Positions 2,909-27,130 of a stretch of DNA of 33,998 bases are shown one piece after another. The number at the start of each line of letters is the position of its first letter. Within the stretch, counting starts at the first letter, position 1. The notes below the pieces were generated by a model that was not told the origin of the DNA, searched no databases, and worked only from the letters and a program-made list of their open reading frames with translations. Source of the DNA: Prevotella sp. (lineage in GTDB: Bacteria > Bacteroidota > Bacteroidia > Bacteroidales > Bacteroidaceae); contig JAFPEE010000230.1 in assembly GCA_017389705.1 (NCBI GenBank), positions 1-33,998 of the forward strand. Reading direction: 5' to 3'. Made by a program: the position numbers and the translations under genes.

Positions 2909-5560
2909 ATGAGAAAAATCACCGTTTTTAGCATCTTGTTATGCATGACGCTGACCATGATGGCCCAGCGGGTCAGTATTGTGACTAGTAAGAAAGCCAC
3001 CAACCGTGAGCAATATGCCAAGGAATACCTCCAAAAGAAGCTCACAGCAATGGGCTACGAGGTAACGCCTAAGAAAGGTCTGCGCATCTCGCTCACTAAT
3101 GCTGCTACAGGTACTGCAGAGGGATATGCCATCACGAAAGACAAACAAGGATTCGTGGTATCGGGCAATGATGCTACGGGTGTGATTTACGGTTGTGTGG
3201 AACTGGCTGACCGCATCCGTCAGAAGGGTTCGCTGGATATAGAACCTGTGCAGGAAACACCAGGAATGGTGATGCGTGGCACGTGTATCGGACTGCAGAA
3301 GACGGTGTATCTGCCTGGCCATGCGGTCTATGAGTATCCCTATACGCCAGAGAACTTCCCTTGGTTCTACGACAAGGAGGAGTGGGTGAAGTATCTCGAT
3401 ATGATGGTGGACAACAAGATGAACTCGCTCTACCTCTGGAACGGACATCCCTTCGCCTCGCTGGTGAAGTTGAAGGACTATCCTTTTGCCCTTGAGGTTG
3501 ACGAGGAGACCTTTAAGAAGAATGTCGATATGTTCTCGTTCCTGACCCATGAGGCCGACAAGCGAGGTATCTGGGTCATTCAGATGTTCTATAACATCAT
3601 CTTGAGCAAGCCCTTTGCCGACCATTACGGACTGAAGACACAGGATCGTCATCGTCCTATCACCCCATTGATTTCAGACTATACCCGCAAGTCGATTGCC
3701 GCCTTCATCGAGAACTATCCCAACGTAGGCTTGCTGGTATGTCTGGGCGAAGCAATGGCTACCATCGAGGATGACGTGACGTGGATGAAGGAGACCATCA
3801 TTCCTGGCATCAAGGACGGACTGAAGAACGTTCAACGTTCAACGTTCAACGTTCAACGTTTACCCCCCATCGTGCTTCGCGCCCACGATACCGACGGGCC
3901 GCTGGTACTGAAAGAGTCGCTGCCCCTCTACCCCAACATCTACACCATGTCGAAGTATACGGGTGAGTCGCTGACCACCTACCAGCCTGGAGGACCTTGG
4001 GGTGAGACACATCGTCAGCTGGCTGAGGCTGCTCCTGTGCATATCGATAATGTACATATCCTAGCCAACCTGGAACCTTGGCGTTGGTCGTCACCTGCCT
4101 TTATCGAGAAGACGGTACAGGCTATGCACCGCGTACATCACTCGAAGGGCTTGCACCTCTATCCGCAGGCTTCGTATTGGGACTGGCCCTATACGGCAGA
4201 CAAGTTGCCAAATGGTGAACGTCAGAAGCAGTTGGATCGCGACTGGATGTGGTATCAGGCTTGGGGACGCTACGCCTGGAACGACCAGCGTGGCAGCGAT
4301 AAATCCTATTGGAAACGTGAATTGGCCGAATACTACGGTATTGACACCATCGCTGCAGGTCATCTGTTGAATGCTTACGATGAGGCGGGCGAGATTGCTC
4401 CCAAACTACTCCGTCGTTTCGGTATCACGGAGGGCAATCGTCAGACGCTGCTCCTCGGTATGACGATGGGACAGCTGGTGAATCCCTATAAGTACACTAT
4501 TTATCCTGGATTCTACGAGAGCTGCGGTCCTGAGGGCGAGAAGCTCATCGAGTATATCGAGAAAGAATATAACGGACAGGCGCACAAGGGTGAGTTGCCT
4601 TTCGACATCGTAGACCAGTGTGTGAATCATGGCGACCGTGCCCTCGTCGAGATGGCTGCGATTAGTGCTAAGCCCACCCGTCATGCAGACGAATACCAGC
4701 GCGTGTGGAACGACTTCCGCTGCTATGCCCTCTTTGCCAAAGCCTTCCAGTTAAAGGTACGTGCTGCCGCTGAGGTGCTACGCTACAAGTGGACGAAGGA
4801 CATCGCCCATCTGGAGTCGGCTGTCATGTGGCTGGAACAGAGCAACAGCACTTGGAGCGAGCTATGCCAGTTGACCGACAAGACCTACCTCTATGCCAAC
4901 TCCATGCAGACAGCACAGCGTCGTATTCCCGTAGGTGGCGATGGTGGCAAGATGAAGACATGGAGCGAGCTGGCTGTGGTCTATCAAGCAGAGCTCGATG
5001 CCTTCAAGGAGAACATCGAAAAGCTGAAGCATCCTGTTGCTCAGGCAGATGTCAAGATTCAGCCTCTCCACCCCGCCAACGTGAAATACAAGGGGGCTAC
5101 GGTTACGCTGCAGAAGGGCGCCATCCTCTTTGAGAAACGCCCTGATACCGCCGTCGATTCCATCGCTCCAGAACTCGCTGGTCTGCAAGCCTTCGTGCTG
5201 AACCGCGACACTACCCGTCTCGTAGGAACCACCATCGAGTACGAGAGCGACAAGCCCGTCAAGCTGCTTGTAGGACTCTTCAAGGACGACGACCGCAAGT
5301 TTGCCAAGGCTCCCAAGTTGGAGATCGATGCTACGGGCAATGAGTACGGTCAGGCAGAACCCGTCCTGACCAATGCCATCAGCATCGTTCAGATGCCTAA
5401 GGTCAACATCCACCAATACGCGCTACCTGCAGGTCGTAATTCCATCCGCTTGCCGAAGGGTATCCTCATGGTGGCTGGTTTTACTGATAGCACCATCAAT
5501 CCTCGCGACTGCGGACTGAACGGTCCTTCGGGCGAAGTGGACTGGCTGTTCCAAAGGTAA
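2909..5560 (+). CDS. Exported glycosidase-like protein, family not recognised
   Basis: 883 residues with a signal peptide (MRKITVFSILLCMTLTMMA, cut before Q20). Residues 21-115 resemble the small alpha/beta domain that precedes the barrel in GH20 and GH67 enzymes (AKEYLQKKLTAMGYEV, GNDATGVIYGCVELADRI). Residues 120-430 look like a TIM barrel (WVKYLDMMVDNKMNSLYLW, GIWVIQMFYNI, VGLLVCLGEAM, HILANLEPWRW, LHLYPQASYWDWPY). E281 in LGEAM and E389 in NLEPW are candidate catalytic acids, by inference. A helical region and a beta-rich C-terminus (about 700-883) follow. It heads an operon with GH67, GH2 and a regulator, which suggests a xylan side-chain enzyme, but I cannot name the family or substrate. 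Residues 307-317 (NVQRSTFNVQR) come from a 7-bp tandem repeat and look inserted. Confidence 0.75.
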   Translation: MRKITVFSILLCMTLTMMAQRVSIVTSKKATNREQYAKEYLQKKLTAMGYEVTPKKGLRISLTNAATGTAEGYAITKDKQGFVVSGNDATGVIYGCVELADRIRQKGSLDIEPVQETPGMVMRGTCIGLQKTVYLPGHAVYEYPYTPENFPWFYDKEEWVKYLDMMVDNKMNSLYLWNGHPFASLVKLKDYPFALEVDEETFKKNVDMFSFLTHEADKRGIWVIQMFYNIILSKPFADHYGLKTQDRHRPITPLISDYTRKSIAAFIENYPNVGLLVCLGEAMATIEDDVTWMKETIIPGIKDGLKNVQRSTFNVQRLPPIVLRAHDTDGPLVLKESLPLYPNIYTMSKYTGESLTTYQPGGPWGETHRQLAEAAPVHIDNVHILANLEPWRWSSPAFIEKTVQAMHRVHHSKGLHLYPQASYWDWPYTADKLPNGERQKQLDRDWMWYQAWGRYAWNDQRGSDKSYWKRELAEYYGIDTIAAGHLLNAYDEAGEIAPKLLRRFGITEGNRQTLLLGMTMGQLVNPYKYTIYPGFYESCGPEGEKLIEYIEKEYNGQAHKGELPFDIVDQCVNHGDRALVEMAAISAKPTRHADEYQRVWNDFRCYALFAKAFQLKVRAAAEVLRYKWTKDIAHLESAVMWLEQSNSTWSELCQLTDKTYLYANSMQTAQRRIPVGGDGGKMKTWSELAVVYQAELDAFKENIEKLKHPVAQADVKIQPLHPANVKYKGATVTLQKGAILFEKRPDTAVDSIAPELAGLQAFVLNRDTTRLVGTTIEYESDKPVKLLVGLFKDDDRKFAKAPKLEIDATGNEYGQAEPVLTNAISIVQMPKVNIHQYALPAGRNSIRLPKGILMVAGFTDSTINPRDCGLNGPSGEVDWLFQR
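3827..3861 (+). repeat. Heptanucleotide tract (AACGTTC)5 inside a CDS
   Basis: Five contiguous 7-bp units: AACGTTC four times, then AACGTTT. The unit contains the palindrome AACGTT. It encodes NVQRSTFNVQR within the TIM-barrel domain of the 2909 gene, between the strand-forming regions around LKN and PPIVLRAHDTD. Because 7 is not a multiple of 3, gain or loss of one unit would shift the frame. Confidence 0.9.
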
Positions 5561-5564
5561 TGAA

Positions 5565-5683
5565 CAATGCACAATGCACAATTCACAATTCACAATGCAC
5601 AATGCACAATGCATAATTCACAATTCACAATGCACAATGCACAATGCATAATTCACAATTCACAATGCATAATGCATAATACA
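5565..5683 (+). repeat. 17-copy heptanucleotide array
   Basis: The intergenic gap between two operon genes is almost entirely made of 17 consecutive 7-bp units of consensus YAATKCA: CAATGCA, CAATTCA, TAATTCA and TAATGCA, with a last unit TAATACA. A higher-order 35-bp block (three CAATGCA, TAATTCA, CAATTCA) is repeated exactly at 5593-5627 and 5628-5662. The array begins four bases after the stop at 5560 and ends eleven bases before the next start. Its reverse complement occurs inside that next gene at 5731-5758, so RNA could fold into a long hairpin covering the start codon. Confidence 0.95.
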
Positions 5684-5694
5684 AATTATCAATA

Positions 5695-8600
5695 ATGATG
5701 AAACGATTATCTCTTACTGCCCTTTTATTGTGCATTGTGCATTATGCATTGTGCATTGAAAAAGATGTCATGCAGCGCATCTATGACGAGGTGCGCACAC
5801 CTTATAAATATGGTATGGTGGTGGCACCTACGGACAACTACCACAAGATTGATTGTCCTACCGTCTTCCAGCAAGATGGCAAATGGTATATGACCTATGT
5901 CGTCTATAATGGCAAGGAGGGACTCGACGGACGCGGCTATGAGACGTGGCTGGCTGAGAGCGACGACCTGTTGCGCTGGACTACCCAAGGACGCATCCTG
6001 TCGTATAAAGACGAGGGTTGGGACATGAACCAGCGAGGCGGATTCCCTGCTCTCATCGACTGGACATGGGGTGGCAGCTATGGCATCGCGAAATACAAGA
6101 AGAACTACTGGATGACCTATATCGGTGGGCATGGCACAGGTTATGAGGCCGTTCGCGAGCCCCTAAACATCGGACTGGCTTGGACCAGCGGTGACATCAC
6201 CCAGGCTCATGAATGGCAGTCGGACGACAAGCCACTTATCAGCATTAGTGACAAAGATGCCCAGTGGTGGGAGAAGTTGACGGAGTATAAAAGTACTATC
6301 TATAGCCTCACCCCCAGCCCCTCTCCAAAGGGCGAGGGGAGTGGTTTGTCCAAGGATCTGTGCAAATATCGCTTCATCATGTTCTACAACGCCGGCGGTG
6401 TCAACCCCACGAACAACTTGAAGGCTGAGCGCATCGGCATCGCTCTCTCCAACGACCTGAAGAAGTGGAAGCGCTATGATGGTAACCCCGTTTTCGCCAA
6501 CGAGGTAGGCGGCATCATTACGGGTGATGCACAGATTGCCAAGATGGGCGACCACTATGTGATGTTCTATTTCAAAGCCTACGACCCATCGCGCAAGTAT
6601 AATGCTTTCAACACCTTTGCCGTCAGTCGCGACCTCATCCATTGGCAGCGTTGGGAAGGCGAAGACCTCATCTGGCCTACCAAACCATACGACGAGATGT
6701 TTGCCCATAAGAGCTGTGTGGTGAAACACGACGGTGTGGTCTATCATTTCTACTGTGCCGTCAACAACGACCAGCAGCGAGGTATTGCTGTTGCCACCAG
6801 CGTGCCTATGGGACGCTCGGAGGTTCGTTTCCCAGAACCTGAGCGCAAAGGGCGTCGCGCGATTACCTCGCTGAACGAAGGTTGGAAGGCACATTGTTCT
6901 GCAGGGCGTGATACTATCGCTACTGACGTCACCATTCCCCATAACTTCGACGACTATTACGGCTACCGTCAGCTGCGTCATGGCAATCTGCATGGAAAGG
7001 CTACCTATCATAAGACTTTCACTACCAAGAAGCAAGAAGGCAAACGCTATTTCCTCCAGTTCGAAGGTGTAGGTACCTATGCCACCGTTACCCTTAACGG
7101 TCATCCATATCCTGAAGAGCTGGTGGGTCGTACCGTCTGGACACTTGACATTACCGACCGCATGAAGGATGGCGACAACGACCTACGCGTTGACGTAGAC
7201 CATCCAGCCATGCAGACAGCCTCGCCATGGGTGTGTGGTGGCTGTTCGTCAGAATGGGGTTTCTCAGAAGGTAGCCAGCCTTTCGGCATCTTCCGTCCCG
7301 TGAGTCTTATCGAGACGGATGCCGTGCGCATCGAGCCTTTTGGCGTCCATATCTGGAATAACGTTGCCTGTGACTCTGTCTTCATTGAGACTGAGGTCAG
7401 AAATTATACCAACCAACCTCAGACCATCGAGTTGGTCAACAAGTTTACGCTTGCCTCTGGTAAGCAAGTGTTCCGTCATGCCAAGCCTGTCGTCCTCAAG
7501 GCTGGTGAAACCAAGACACTTCGTGATGCTGAACACATAGAGAAGGTCCATCGCTGGTCTCTGCAAGACCCCTATCTCTATACGCTGACCACGATGATTA
7601 AACGTGACGCCAAGACTACTGACGAGGTGCGCACACCCTTTGGTATCCGCAACATCTCATGGCCAGTTAAGCGCAACGACGGCGATAACCGTTTCTATCT
7701 GAATGGCACGCCCGTCTTCATCAACGGCACCTGCGAGTATGAGCATATCTTAGGTGGCAGTCATGCCTTTACCCCGGAACAGATCCGTTCGCGCATGAAA
7801 CAGATTACCAATGCAGGCTTCAATGCGCTGCGCGAGGCCCACCAACCCCATAACCTGCTCTACCAACAGTTGTGCGATGAACAGGGCATCCTCTTCTGGA
7901 GTCAGTTCTCTGCCCATATCTGGTATGACACGCCTCTGTTCCGAGAGAACTTCAAGCGTCTGCTCGTTCGTTGGATCAAGGAGCGTTGGAATAGCCCCTC
8001 TATCATCTTGTGGGGCCTGCAGAACGAGAGTGTGTTGCCGAAGGACTTTGCAGAGGAATGCAGTAACATCATCCGCTCGCTCGACCCCACCTGCCAAGAG
8101 CAACGTGCCATCACCACCTGCAATGGTGGCGAAGGAACAGACTGGAACGTTATCCAGAACTGGAGTGGTACATACGGAGGCTCGGCCGAGAACTACGACA
8201 ATGAGCTGAAACGTCCTGATCAGTTGCTCAATGGTGAGTATGGCGCGTGGCGCACGATCGATATGCATGGCGATGCGAAATACAGCGAGGAGTCGTTTAC
8301 CAAATTGCTGGAGACCAAGGCTCGTCTGGCTGAGAGTGCCAAGGACAGCGTCTGCGGCCATTTCCAATGGATCTTCAATTCGCACGACAATCCTGGACGC
8401 GTACAACCCGATGGTGCCTATCGTCGCATTGACAAGATAGGTCCCATCAACTACAAGGGGCTCGTCACCGCGTGGGAGGAACCTACCCCCGCCTACTACA
8501 TGTACCGTCAGCGCTATGCAGCCACTGTGCCCGACGGTTTTCCGTCGGGTGTTCTCCCCACCGCTGCAGACAGGAACATCGACCTCCTGAAGGGCGCTGA

Positions 8601-9570
8601 GGGCTATCACTATCTCTATCGCATCAACTGCGGTGGCGATGCCTTCGTAGACGAGTTCGGCCAGCAGTGGATAGCTGATGACACGCTCTATAGCCATTCT
8701 TGGGGACAGGACTTCTTAGACCCGAGGTCTAAGTGTGGCGTTGCGAACAAGGGTATCCATGCCCTTCAGGCCTCACAGCGCCATATCACTACCGACATCC
8801 GAGGCACCAAGAGCGACGAGCTGTTCCAGTTCTTCCGTTTCGGTCGTCATCGTCTGTGGTACGACCTGCCCGTGGCCGATGGCGACTACCGTGTGGAGCT
8901 CTATTTCGTAGAGCCCTGGCACGGACGTGATGCAGCAGAGCGAGCCGACTATGAAGGACTGCGCATCTTCGATGTGGCCATCAATGGGCAAACCCTCATC
9001 AACGACCTCGACCCGTGGGCTGAGGCAGGCTATTGCGGAGCGCTGAAGCGCGTCGTCACCGCCAAAGCCAAGAACGGCCGTCTGCACATCAGCTTCCCGG
9101 AGGTCAAGGCTGGGCAGGCCATTATCTGCGGCATTGCCGTAGCGGCTGTTCAGCCTATCGCTGTGCCACAGCGACAGACAACAGTCTCCTGGCTCTCCCT
9201 CGACACCGACACTATAGCCAAACTGCCAAAGGAAGAACTTCCTCAAGACACCGAGGCACGCCCGGCCTCCGTCTACCAGCCAATGGCTAAAAAGCCAACA
9301 GCCACCACCTTTATCATTACGCCTGGACTGGGACAGGAATATGCCCTACGCTTCCGATACAAGAACACTACGGGCCAGCCTGTCAGTGCTCGCATGACGA
9401 TAACCGATTCGAAGAAGACGGTATTGGTGGACCGCGCTGTCACATTCCCGCCCACACCCAACAAGTTCAAGATGCTCAGCACCACCACAGGCACTCAGAT
9501 CAATGCTGGTACCTATACCCTGCGCGTCGAGGCTGGTGATATAGAATTCAAAGAACTGGAAATACAATAA
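5695..9570 (+). CDS. Propeller glycosidase-GH2-malectin fusion
   Basis: 1291 residues, starting at ATG-ATG (5695/5698), with a signal peptide partly made of repeat sequence. Residues about 25-375 form a five-bladed-propeller glycosidase-like domain of the GH43/GH32/GH117 kind (DCPTVFQQDGKWYMTYV, GGFPALIDW, GIALSNDLKKWKRY, GIITGDAQIAKMGDHYVMFY). Residues about 385-960 are a GH2 enzyme: jelly-roll (ATVTLNG, GGCSSEWGF), immunoglobulin domain, then TIM barrel. E778 in LQNES is the expected acid/base and E848 in NGEYG the expected nucleophile. Residues about 985-1155 resemble malectin (RFGRHRLWYDLPV, YRVELYFVEPWHG). A beta domain ends the protein. Two glycosidase modules suggest removal of adjacent side-chain sugars; substrates are unknown. 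In-frame repeat inserts lie at residues 13-22, about 205-216, 946-952 and 1008-1013. Confidence 0.8.
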   Translation: MMKRLSLTALLLCIVHYALCIEKDVMQRIYDEVRTPYKYGMVVAPTDNYHKIDCPTVFQQDGKWYMTYVVYNGKEGLDGRGYETWLAESDDLLRWTTQGRILSYKDEGWDMNQRGGFPALIDWTWGGSYGIAKYKKNYWMTYIGGHGTGYEAVREPLNIGLAWTSGDITQAHEWQSDDKPLISISDKDAQWWEKLTEYKSTIYSLTPSPSPKGEGSGLSKDLCKYRFIMFYNAGGVNPTNNLKAERIGIALSNDLKKWKRYDGNPVFANEVGGIITGDAQIAKMGDHYVMFYFKAYDPSRKYNAFNTFAVSRDLIHWQRWEGEDLIWPTKPYDEMFAHKSCVVKHDGVVYHFYCAVNNDQQRGIAVATSVPMGRSEVRFPEPERKGRRAITSLNEGWKAHCSAGRDTIATDVTIPHNFDDYYGYRQLRHGNLHGKATYHKTFTTKKQEGKRYFLQFEGVGTYATVTLNGHPYPEELVGRTVWTLDITDRMKDGDNDLRVDVDHPAMQTASPWVCGGCSSEWGFSEGSQPFGIFRPVSLIETDAVRIEPFGVHIWNNVACDSVFIETEVRNYTNQPQTIELVNKFTLASGKQVFRHAKPVVLKAGETKTLRDAEHIEKVHRWSLQDPYLYTLTTMIKRDAKTTDEVRTPFGIRNISWPVKRNDGDNRFYLNGTPVFINGTCEYEHILGGSHAFTPEQIRSRMKQITNAGFNALREAHQPHNLLYQQLCDEQGILFWSQFSAHIWYDTPLFRENFKRLLVRWIKERWNSPSIILWGLQNESVLPKDFAEECSNIIRSLDPTCQEQRAITTCNGGEGTDWNVIQNWSGTYGGSAENYDNELKRPDQLLNGEYGAWRTIDMHGDAKYSEESFTKLLETKARLAESAKDSVCGHFQWIFNSHDNPGRVQPDGAYRRIDKIGPINYKGLVTAWEEPTPAYYMYRQRYAATVPDGFPSGVLPTAADRNIDLLKGAEGYHYLYRINCGGDAFVDEFGQQWIADDTLYSHSWGQDFLDPRSKCGVANKGIHALQASQRHITTDIRGTKSDELFQFFRFGRHRLWYDLPVADGDYRVELYFVEPWHGRDAAERADYEGLRIFDVAINGQTLINDLDPWAEAGYCGALKRVVTAKAKNGRLHISFPEVKAGQAIICGIAVAAVQPIAVPQRQTTVSWLSLDTDTIAKLPKEELPQDTEARPASVYQPMAKKPTATTFIITPGLGQEYALRFRYKNTTGQPVSARMTITDSKKTVLVDRAVTFPPTPNKFKMLSTTTGTQINAGTYTLRVEAGDIEFKELEIQ
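5731..5758 (+). repeat. Heptamer tract inside a signal peptide
   Basis: Four 7-bp units (TGCATTG, TGCATTA, TGCATTG, TGCATTG) are the reverse complement of the intergenic array 5565-5683. They encode residues 13-22 (CIVHYALCIE) of the 5695 protein, roughly the second half of its signal peptide. The histidine and tyrosine are unusual for a hydrophobic core. Twenty-eight bases is not a whole number of codons, so copy-number change would alter the frame right after the start. Confidence 0.9.
6307..6341 (+). repeat. GC-rich palindromic repeat inserted in frame
   Basis: CTCACCCCCAGCCCCTCTCC followed by AAAGGGCGAGGGGAG forms a C-rich/G-rich stem-loop (CCCCTC against GAGGGG). It reads in frame as LTPSPSPKGEGS in the propeller domain of the 5695 protein, between KSTIYS and YRFIMFYNAGG. 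It has the composition and peptide reading of a GC-rich dispersed repeat found in many bacterial genomes, including Bacteroidota, and looks like an insertion into a surface loop. Confidence 0.75.
8530..8549 (+). repeat. Perfect hairpin within the fusion gene (1)
   Basis: CCCGACGG, loop TTTT, CCGTCGGG: an eight-base perfect stem inside coding sequence, giving PDGFPSG at the boundary between the GH2 barrel and the malectin region of the 5695 protein. It has the shape of a terminator hairpin but no T run follows. Confidence 0.7.
8715..8733 (+). repeat. Perfect hairpin within the fusion gene (2)
   Basis: CTTAGACC, loop CGA, GGTCTAAG: another eight-base perfect stem, 165 bases after the first, encoding LDPRSK just before the malectin core. 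The residues from LDPRSK to about IHALQ look like extra sequence compared with what I would expect before the QRHITTDIRG segment. Confidence 0.7.
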
Positions 9571-26957: not shown

Positions 26958-27042
26958 AACCGAACATTAATTCAATCGTGTTCCACGTTTTTGGGTCTTC
27001 CAACGCATCTTGCCATGACCGTCCAGACGTGGGCGGAGCAGA

Positions 27043-27130
27043 GACTAGCAGTGAGCCGGGCAAAGACTGGCATTGAGCCGGGCAAAGACTGGCATCGAGC
27101 CGGGCAAAGTTTGGCAGCGCCCGGCTCAAA
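27043..27130 (-). repeat. Array B: four 22-bp units, inverted copy of array A
   Basis: Read on the minus strand, four 22-bp units (27130-27109, 27108-27087, 27086-27065, 27064-27043) match the four units of array A in order. The flank TGAAGGGGGTT before the first unit is the same. The two middle units begin TTTGCCCGGCTC and differ by one base. It sits between the end of the serine peptidase gene (27180) and the LRR start (26941), about 100 bases upstream of the LRR gene and pointing towards it, as array A points towards the gene at 2909. Confidence 0.85.

Follow-up and report, generated by a model that had tools for sequence, protein, structure and literature searches.

Why should a short tandem repeat that fills the gap in front of a gene return, in opposite orientation, among the codons of that gene's signal peptide (SP)? 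The question is raised by a stretch of 33,998 nucleotides from Prevotella sp. (contig JAFPEE010000230.1), here called the window, in which two period-7 arrays flank a start codon. The left array occupies positions 5565-5683 of the forward strand and has a 35-bp higher-order period. It is made of YAATKCA heptamers, of which 16 are exact (5565-5676, or 5566-5677 when the unit is scanned as AATKCAY). Tandem Repeats Finder assigns to it 17.4 copies at 5559-5680 or, alternatively, five units of 35 bp extending to 5687. The earlier note had counted 17 units; the array is real, and the seventeenth unit (5677-5683) is imperfect. The copy number is itself uncertain, because the genome comes from a fragmented assembly (265 contigs, 85.8% complete). 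Directly before the array is the stop codon of a co-directional gene (2909-5560, forward strand), which encodes 883 aa with a GH20b domain match.

The array is followed at 5684-5726 by a loop, which includes an A-rich leader, the start codon (ATGATG at 5695) and the SP n-region MMKRLSLTAL, and measures 49 nt when counted between the exact units of the doublet. The reverse arm comes next, on the same strand at 5727-5758. It is a stop-free 32-bp tract of structure ATT(RTGCATT)4G, with four exact RTGMATT units at 5730-5757, and Tandem Repeats Finder reads it as a second period-7 array of 4.6 copies in opposite orientation. The arm is in frame within the ORF 5695-9570 (forward strand), a secreted glycosidase of 1291 aa featuring a weak GH32-N-like N-terminal match, GH2 domains and a malectin domain. 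It encodes the SP core LLCIVHYALCI, located in the N-terminal stretch MMKRLSLTALLLCIVHYALCIEKD of the protein. The array's opposite strand thus provides the SP core of the next gene, as the earlier note had claimed; the inverted units, placed by it at codons 13-22, do lie in the SP, and the encoded span is slightly wider, about residues 11-21. No Rfam family matched the window at the gathering threshold.

Other repeats are found in the same DNA. Residues 204-220 of the 1291-aa protein (6304-6354) correspond to an in-frame SLTPSPSPKGEGSGLSK tract with a G/C palindrome-like repeat, absent or shorter in at least seven of the nine homologues compared. A heptamer array of 4.9 AACGTTC copies (3827-3860) belongs to the coding part of the upstream gene and reads NVQRSTF-type. 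A 22-bp unit of the TGCCAGTCTTTGCCCGGCTCAA type is arrayed twice on opposite strands in intergenic DNA (2711-2791 and 27038-27116), and a 74-bp direct repeat (2.1 copies, 97% matches) spans 404-557.

The heptamer is not confined to this gap. In the same genome a three-unit pattern matched 33 times in forward and 27 times in reverse orientation, over 11 contigs, and never when read backwards as a control; the array is therefore not a chance product. The 4.5-unit form is hosted by 22 of 60 genomes of the same genus and the stop-free form by 33 of 299, the control again giving zero. Beyond the genus, the matches listed include Muribaculaceae, Paludibacteraceae, Bacteroidaceae, Clostridia, Ruminococcus, Kiritimatiellae and others, nearly all of them metagenome assemblies. 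The typical dispersed arm is a mostly intergenic 33-bp sequence, AATT(RTGMATT)4R. Arms of exactly 33 bp make up 48 of 126 measured arrays, 84 of 126 start in the AATT phase, and many are bordered by a GC-rich inner flank such as GCGCAGCC. Among 287 arms, neighbours less than 200 bp apart are arranged as +- in 34 instances, as -+ in none, as ++ in 13 and as -- in 14, so that inverted doublets have one fixed polarity (34 versus 0), in the manner of REPINs. Single arms are found between co-directional genes in 83 of 131 cases and inside an ORF in 18; the same repeat hence occurs both in intergenic DNA and in frame within genes, as do the RPE and YPAL elements discussed below. A role of the doublets as terminators was considered and discarded, as in genus loci 21 of 26 are located between co-directional genes and 2 between convergent genes.

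This organization recalls mobile DNA, and the doublet may be a MITE or a REPIN-like inverted-repeat element that inserts whole at gene seams, the SP being a by-product. The single polarity and the modal 33-bp arm speak for such an element, as do the GC-rich inner flanks, the similar spacing of doublets unrelated to SPs and a clean 13-residue insertion in a lipoprotein family described below. On inspection by eye, the interiors are not conserved and no clear target-site duplication is evident. An element of 100-200 bp with terminal inverted repeats and a conserved interior was not found among these loci, in which arms are inverted and single arms are common. That unrelated repeat units have the same architecture also speaks against such an element. 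A RAYT/Y1 transposase was rejected as the mover of the repeat: PF01797 genes are present in 12 of 20 genomes regardless of arrays, and none of the 20 PF01797 loci has an array of at least two exact units. On balance we hold this reading unlikely as a full account, and it is compatible, as a route of capture, with the explanation preferred below.

Some arms have peculiar settings. In two genomes (G022 and G027; loci L131, L132, L134, L136 and L138) 33-bp arms lie between outward-facing TACCTTTGC-like sequences, in the order GCAAAGGTACGAAAT-arm-TTTGTATCTTTGCA; these flanks resemble Bacteroidetes promoters. In G000, G001 and G053 (L018, L089 and L106) arms occupy seemingly corresponding gaps, judged by eye, of a similar ABC-transporter-like operon. 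In G016 (L129, 649-1006; L124, 992-1151) partial arms recur at a regular 66-bp period, resembling a larger tandem array.

How can such a repeat serve as a signal peptide? When C is found at every M, the RTGMATT strand contains no stop codon and, by the genetic code, reads L-C-I-(V/M)-H-(Y/C)-A in any frame. A U in the second codon position specifies a hydrophobic residue and, since the unit length is not a multiple of three, a T-rich stop-free strand is hydrophobic in every frame. Of 65 stop-free arrays in the genus loci, many lead into a long ORF whose start is SP-like. An automatic filter, run over the fetched loci with their 373 distinct arms, retained 34 rows. Eight were removed by eye (L018 minus strand, L099, L210, L216, L223, L236, L246 and L255), leaving 26 arms in 25 genes as accepted SP cores, called by hydrophobicity only; 26 of 373 is not a rate, many loci having been fetched with the stop-free all-C pattern, which favours coding arms. 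The genes encode GH97 and GH127 enzymes, SusD-like proteins and putative lipoproteins. Domain searches confirm GH97 (L151), GH127 (L149), and SusD and DUF4979 plus Big_2 (both L009), while others are lipoprotein-like by eye. All three reading frames are used, by 22, 2 and 2 arms, respectively. SPs such as MKTKLILLLCIMHCALCINLSA are encoded in the Paludibacteraceae record JAFTSS. The peptides encoded by the arrays would, by their hydrophobicity, work as signal peptides. Two consecutive arms, MRKNHWTWRSPLCIMHYALCIKHFPWRSQLCIMHYALCI, are found in the N-terminus of one lipoprotein-like gene in L169, and also in L022.

The heptamer is not the only repeat used in this way. GH97 and other loci feature SPs built from TTTTTACC 8-mers and from other T-rich heptamers. 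The 8-mer GGTAAAAA, which encodes VLPFYLFTFLP, forms doublets of the type GTAAAAAGGTAA...TTACCTTTTTAC in 28 of 200 genomes (77 matches, some of them overlapping registers); the doublet of opposite polarity was found in one of 200 genomes, at one place. When the first locus of each genome is taken, 18 of 28 loops include the ATG that opens an ORF of 200 or more codons, whose N-terminus is SP-like and reads like VLPFYLFTFLP; the other 10 do not. SP-like genes number 219 in 805,905 sampled bases, a density that predicts about 0.4 such loops in 28. The 8-mer doublets are a second case of repeat-made SP cores, independent of the 7-mer. Several of their loops hold GC palindromes.

The finding of several different T-rich units in SPs may also be taken to mean that T-rich SP codons expand in place by slippage, each gene on its own and with no dispersed element involved. 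Such convergence we judge improbable, as SP arms equal the intergenic arms of the same genomes in sequence, in length and in GC-rich flank.

Repeat-derived SPs are an uncommon, minority feature genome-wide. At the homologue loci, 13 of 140 SP genes have a repeat of period 7 or 8 within their first 100 nt; the adjoining 100 nt contain none (0 of 140), and non-SP genes have none either (0 of 65; Fisher p 1.8e-4). Of the 13 hits, 11 belong to two families picked for arrays already known. In random samples the figures are 1 of 127 SP genes in the window genome, the one being the window gene itself, 0 of 105 in G016, and 5 of 126 in G121, where the adjoining 100 nt gave 1 of 126 (p 0.12); two of the five are weak, one being a plain T-rich stretch and the other falling in the n-region. 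Doublets spanning a start codon are rare. When the 250 nt preceding each SP gene were compared with its first 100 nt, a reverse-complement match of 13 nt or more was found for 1 of 119 genes in the window genome (again the window), 0 of 100 in G016, 1 of 126 in G121 and 3 of 85 at the homologue loci, where one hit (L064) is probably due to a false start. The control stretch gave 0 of 119, 0 of 100, 0 of 126 and 0 of 85. Among non-SP genes of G016, 1 of 206 had a match at the start and 2 of 206 in the control stretch, and direct matches were found for 1 of 144 non-SP genes of the window genome.

These signal peptides were also compared among homologues. Besides the window, 22 loci matching the window protein were examined, and 19 have a readable N-terminus; L062 and L070, which begin inside the gene, and L071, too divergent, were left out. 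The array and its peptide are absent from all 19; this comparison of homologous SPs, suggested in the earlier note, also counts against the switch considered below. A homologue 82% identical has the ordinary SP MRKGILFLWILLTSAAYGQ. By eye, the residues preceding MQRIY are about 24 in the window and 24-28 in four homologues, and therefore the arm would have replaced the core rather than lengthened the SP.

Turnover is best seen in GH97 enzymes. Among 50 orthologues not chosen for arrays, repeat-derived SPs were recognized in 12 by eye and in 8 by strict criteria. On a tree of 55 rows, five of them added for carrying arrays, SP type needs at least 15 changes, repeat versus plain 11, and the starred branches force at least five for the 7-mer. 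The number of independent captures is uncertain, because SP labels are hardly clustered (15 changes versus a shuffled mean of 16.1, equally low in 46 of 200 shuffles) and the tree has many weak branches, with 24 of its 52 inner ones open. The six intact 7-mer SPs all have an upstream arm, partial in two. In four decayed 7-mer SPs the hydrophobic residues are kept; by eye, the upstream arm is absent in three (L329, L333 and L334) and reduced to a remnant in one. In a lipoprotein family, 40 residues precede the conserved CSPxxF motif in L184, L180 and L485 (the same gene as L153) versus 27 in L468, L469, L471, L472 and L473, and the difference looks like the insertion of one arm of 13 residues. 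Inspection by eye found other T-rich heptamers in the orthologues L467, L475 and L476 and a G/C palindrome in L470 and L474.

The earlier note had proposed that the array folds onto the SP codons, burying the start codon, and acts as an expression switch. The pairing is indeed predicted: the RNA spanning 5556-5790 folds at -63.7 kcal/mol (z -3.57; 2 of 200 shuffles equally good), with array units paired to SP codons. The start codon is outside the array helix, loop-side in a weak local hairpin. A switch might operate by slippage of units within the SP, making translation phase-variable, or by the pairing itself. A frame shift arising upstream would leave the core hydrophobic and put the mature protein out of frame. 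The 7-bp unit is frame-sensitive, the predicted hairpin is strong, and the noncoding arm of the window is clearly expanded, with its 17 units. Within 200 nt upstream of the start, a complementary array of at least two exact units accompanies 13 of the 26 SP arms. Partners are, on the other hand, partial for 3 arms and missing for 10, and pairing positions are not kept. The earlier note had named the same residues lacking an array as evidence against its proposal, and these ten are cases of that kind. The coding arms are moreover nearly constant in length, 25 of 26 measuring 31-36 bp and one 26 bp, in a set of 373 arms ranging from 21 to 165 bp, one genome per species being compared. The partner arm has gone in the three decayed GH97 genes named above, and no complementary array was found in the 75 nt upstream of the lipoprotein-family repeat SPs of L467, L475 and L476. 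The two arms of a doublet agree slightly more than shuffled partners do (R, 0.68 versus 0.57; M, 0.64 versus 0.58). A paired function would predict as much; the excess is small, and compensatory pairing between arms was rejected on this ground. The switch is thus weakly supported. We regard control by slippage or hairpin as very improbable, and switching presumably does not occur.

The observations comprise the anatomy of the locus, its recurrence, the readability of the arm in all frames and the use of all three, several repeat types and repeated turnover among orthologues. The reading we prefer, and consider probable, is that a dispersed short tandem repeat was captured and that a copy of it now forms the hydrophobic core of the SP. 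In this genus AT-rich short arrays, such as the 7-mer, the 8-mer and others, occupy many predominantly intergenic sites, and they often form inverted doublets in which the A-rich strand precedes the T-rich one. An arm might reach the start of an exported gene by insertion or by copying, and could there serve at once as an SP core whatever its phase, because the stop-free T-rich strand is hydrophobic in every frame. The captured arm would be retained for its hydrophobicity and then decay by point mutation under selection for this property, the noncoding partner being free to decay. Capture may have involved either the insertion of an arm or doublet, or hairpin-templated copying. Single polarity and fixed arm length favour the element route; copying, or selection for an A-rich leader and a T-rich core, is favoured because unrelated units share the architecture and interiors are unconserved. 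More tentatively, and with chances that we place slightly below even, Prevotella and its relatives may renew signal peptides by capturing stop-free T-rich 7- and 8-bp arrays of unrelated families, repeatedly rewriting their export signals, often with a complementary A-rich array before the start that forms a hairpin and maybe tunes the translation of exported enzymes.

Signal peptides are degenerate in sequence, and the origin of new ones is rarely visible. Here the source is still readable, and a single step can turn noncoding repeat DNA into an export signal, since a stop-free T-rich array whose unit is not a triplet encodes hydrophobic residues whichever frame is read. The orthologue series of GH97 and of the lipoprotein family make it possible to date the birth, replacement and decay of signal peptides; polysaccharide-degrading enzymes and SusD-like proteins are among the cases. 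Annotators should be aware that the start sites and SPs of such genes are embedded in repeats, which may be collapsed in assemblies.

In the open PMC literature, to which most subscription journals do not belong, no paper on array-made SPs in Bacteroidota was found, and searches there for the array DNA strings and for the peptides LCIMHYALC, LCIVHYALC, FYLFTFLP and LPFYLFTF gave no match. Several known systems are similar in part. REP and REPIN sequences, associated with RAYT transposases, are short elements found as singlets and as inverted doublets of one polarity. The present arms are likewise short and similarly arranged, but they are AT-rich tandem arrays, and none lies beside any of the 20 Y1 transposase loci. 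In the opa genes of Neisseria, the CTCTT repeat forms the hydrophobic core of the leader. The opa coding repeats lie in leader-peptide codons, vary in copy number and are phase-variable (PMC3960869). The likeness to opa consists in a tandem repeat, of unit length not a multiple of three, placed inside the codons of a leader, here a predicted SP; the two differ in that opa copy number varies (PMC3960869), whereas SP arms are near-constant in length and are copies of a dispersed intergenic repeat.

MacGregor (2015, PMC4679880) described direct repeats of the heptamer TAACTGA in Beggiatoaceae, Cyanobacteria and some Bacteroidetes. As set out in the portion of that paper drawn on here, they are intergenic heptamer arrays near starts, with stops in all frames of the forward strand and a readable reverse strand (LSVISYQ). 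A few are found at ORF ends, long arrays and other heptamers occur in Bacteroidetes, and relatives have shorter, repeat-free gaps (PMC4679880). The present repeat is mostly intergenic (18 of 131 single arms are inside an ORF) and its forward strand contains TAA where Y is T; the unit differs, and SP use, inverted doublets and orthologue turnover are not described in that portion of the paper (PMC4679880). Protein-coding palindromic elements, namely the RPE of Rickettsia and the YPAL and RU-2 of Yersinia, are dispersed repeats fused in frame to genes, and a MITE forms part of the YPO1552 SP, the one published repeat-made SP in the section of the review consulted (PMC2229807). RPE and YPAL elements are 100-200 bp long and, as far as that section goes, provide a single SP case (PMC2229807), whereas the SPs described here derive from short tandem arrays, readable in all frames, in many genes and from several unrelated units.
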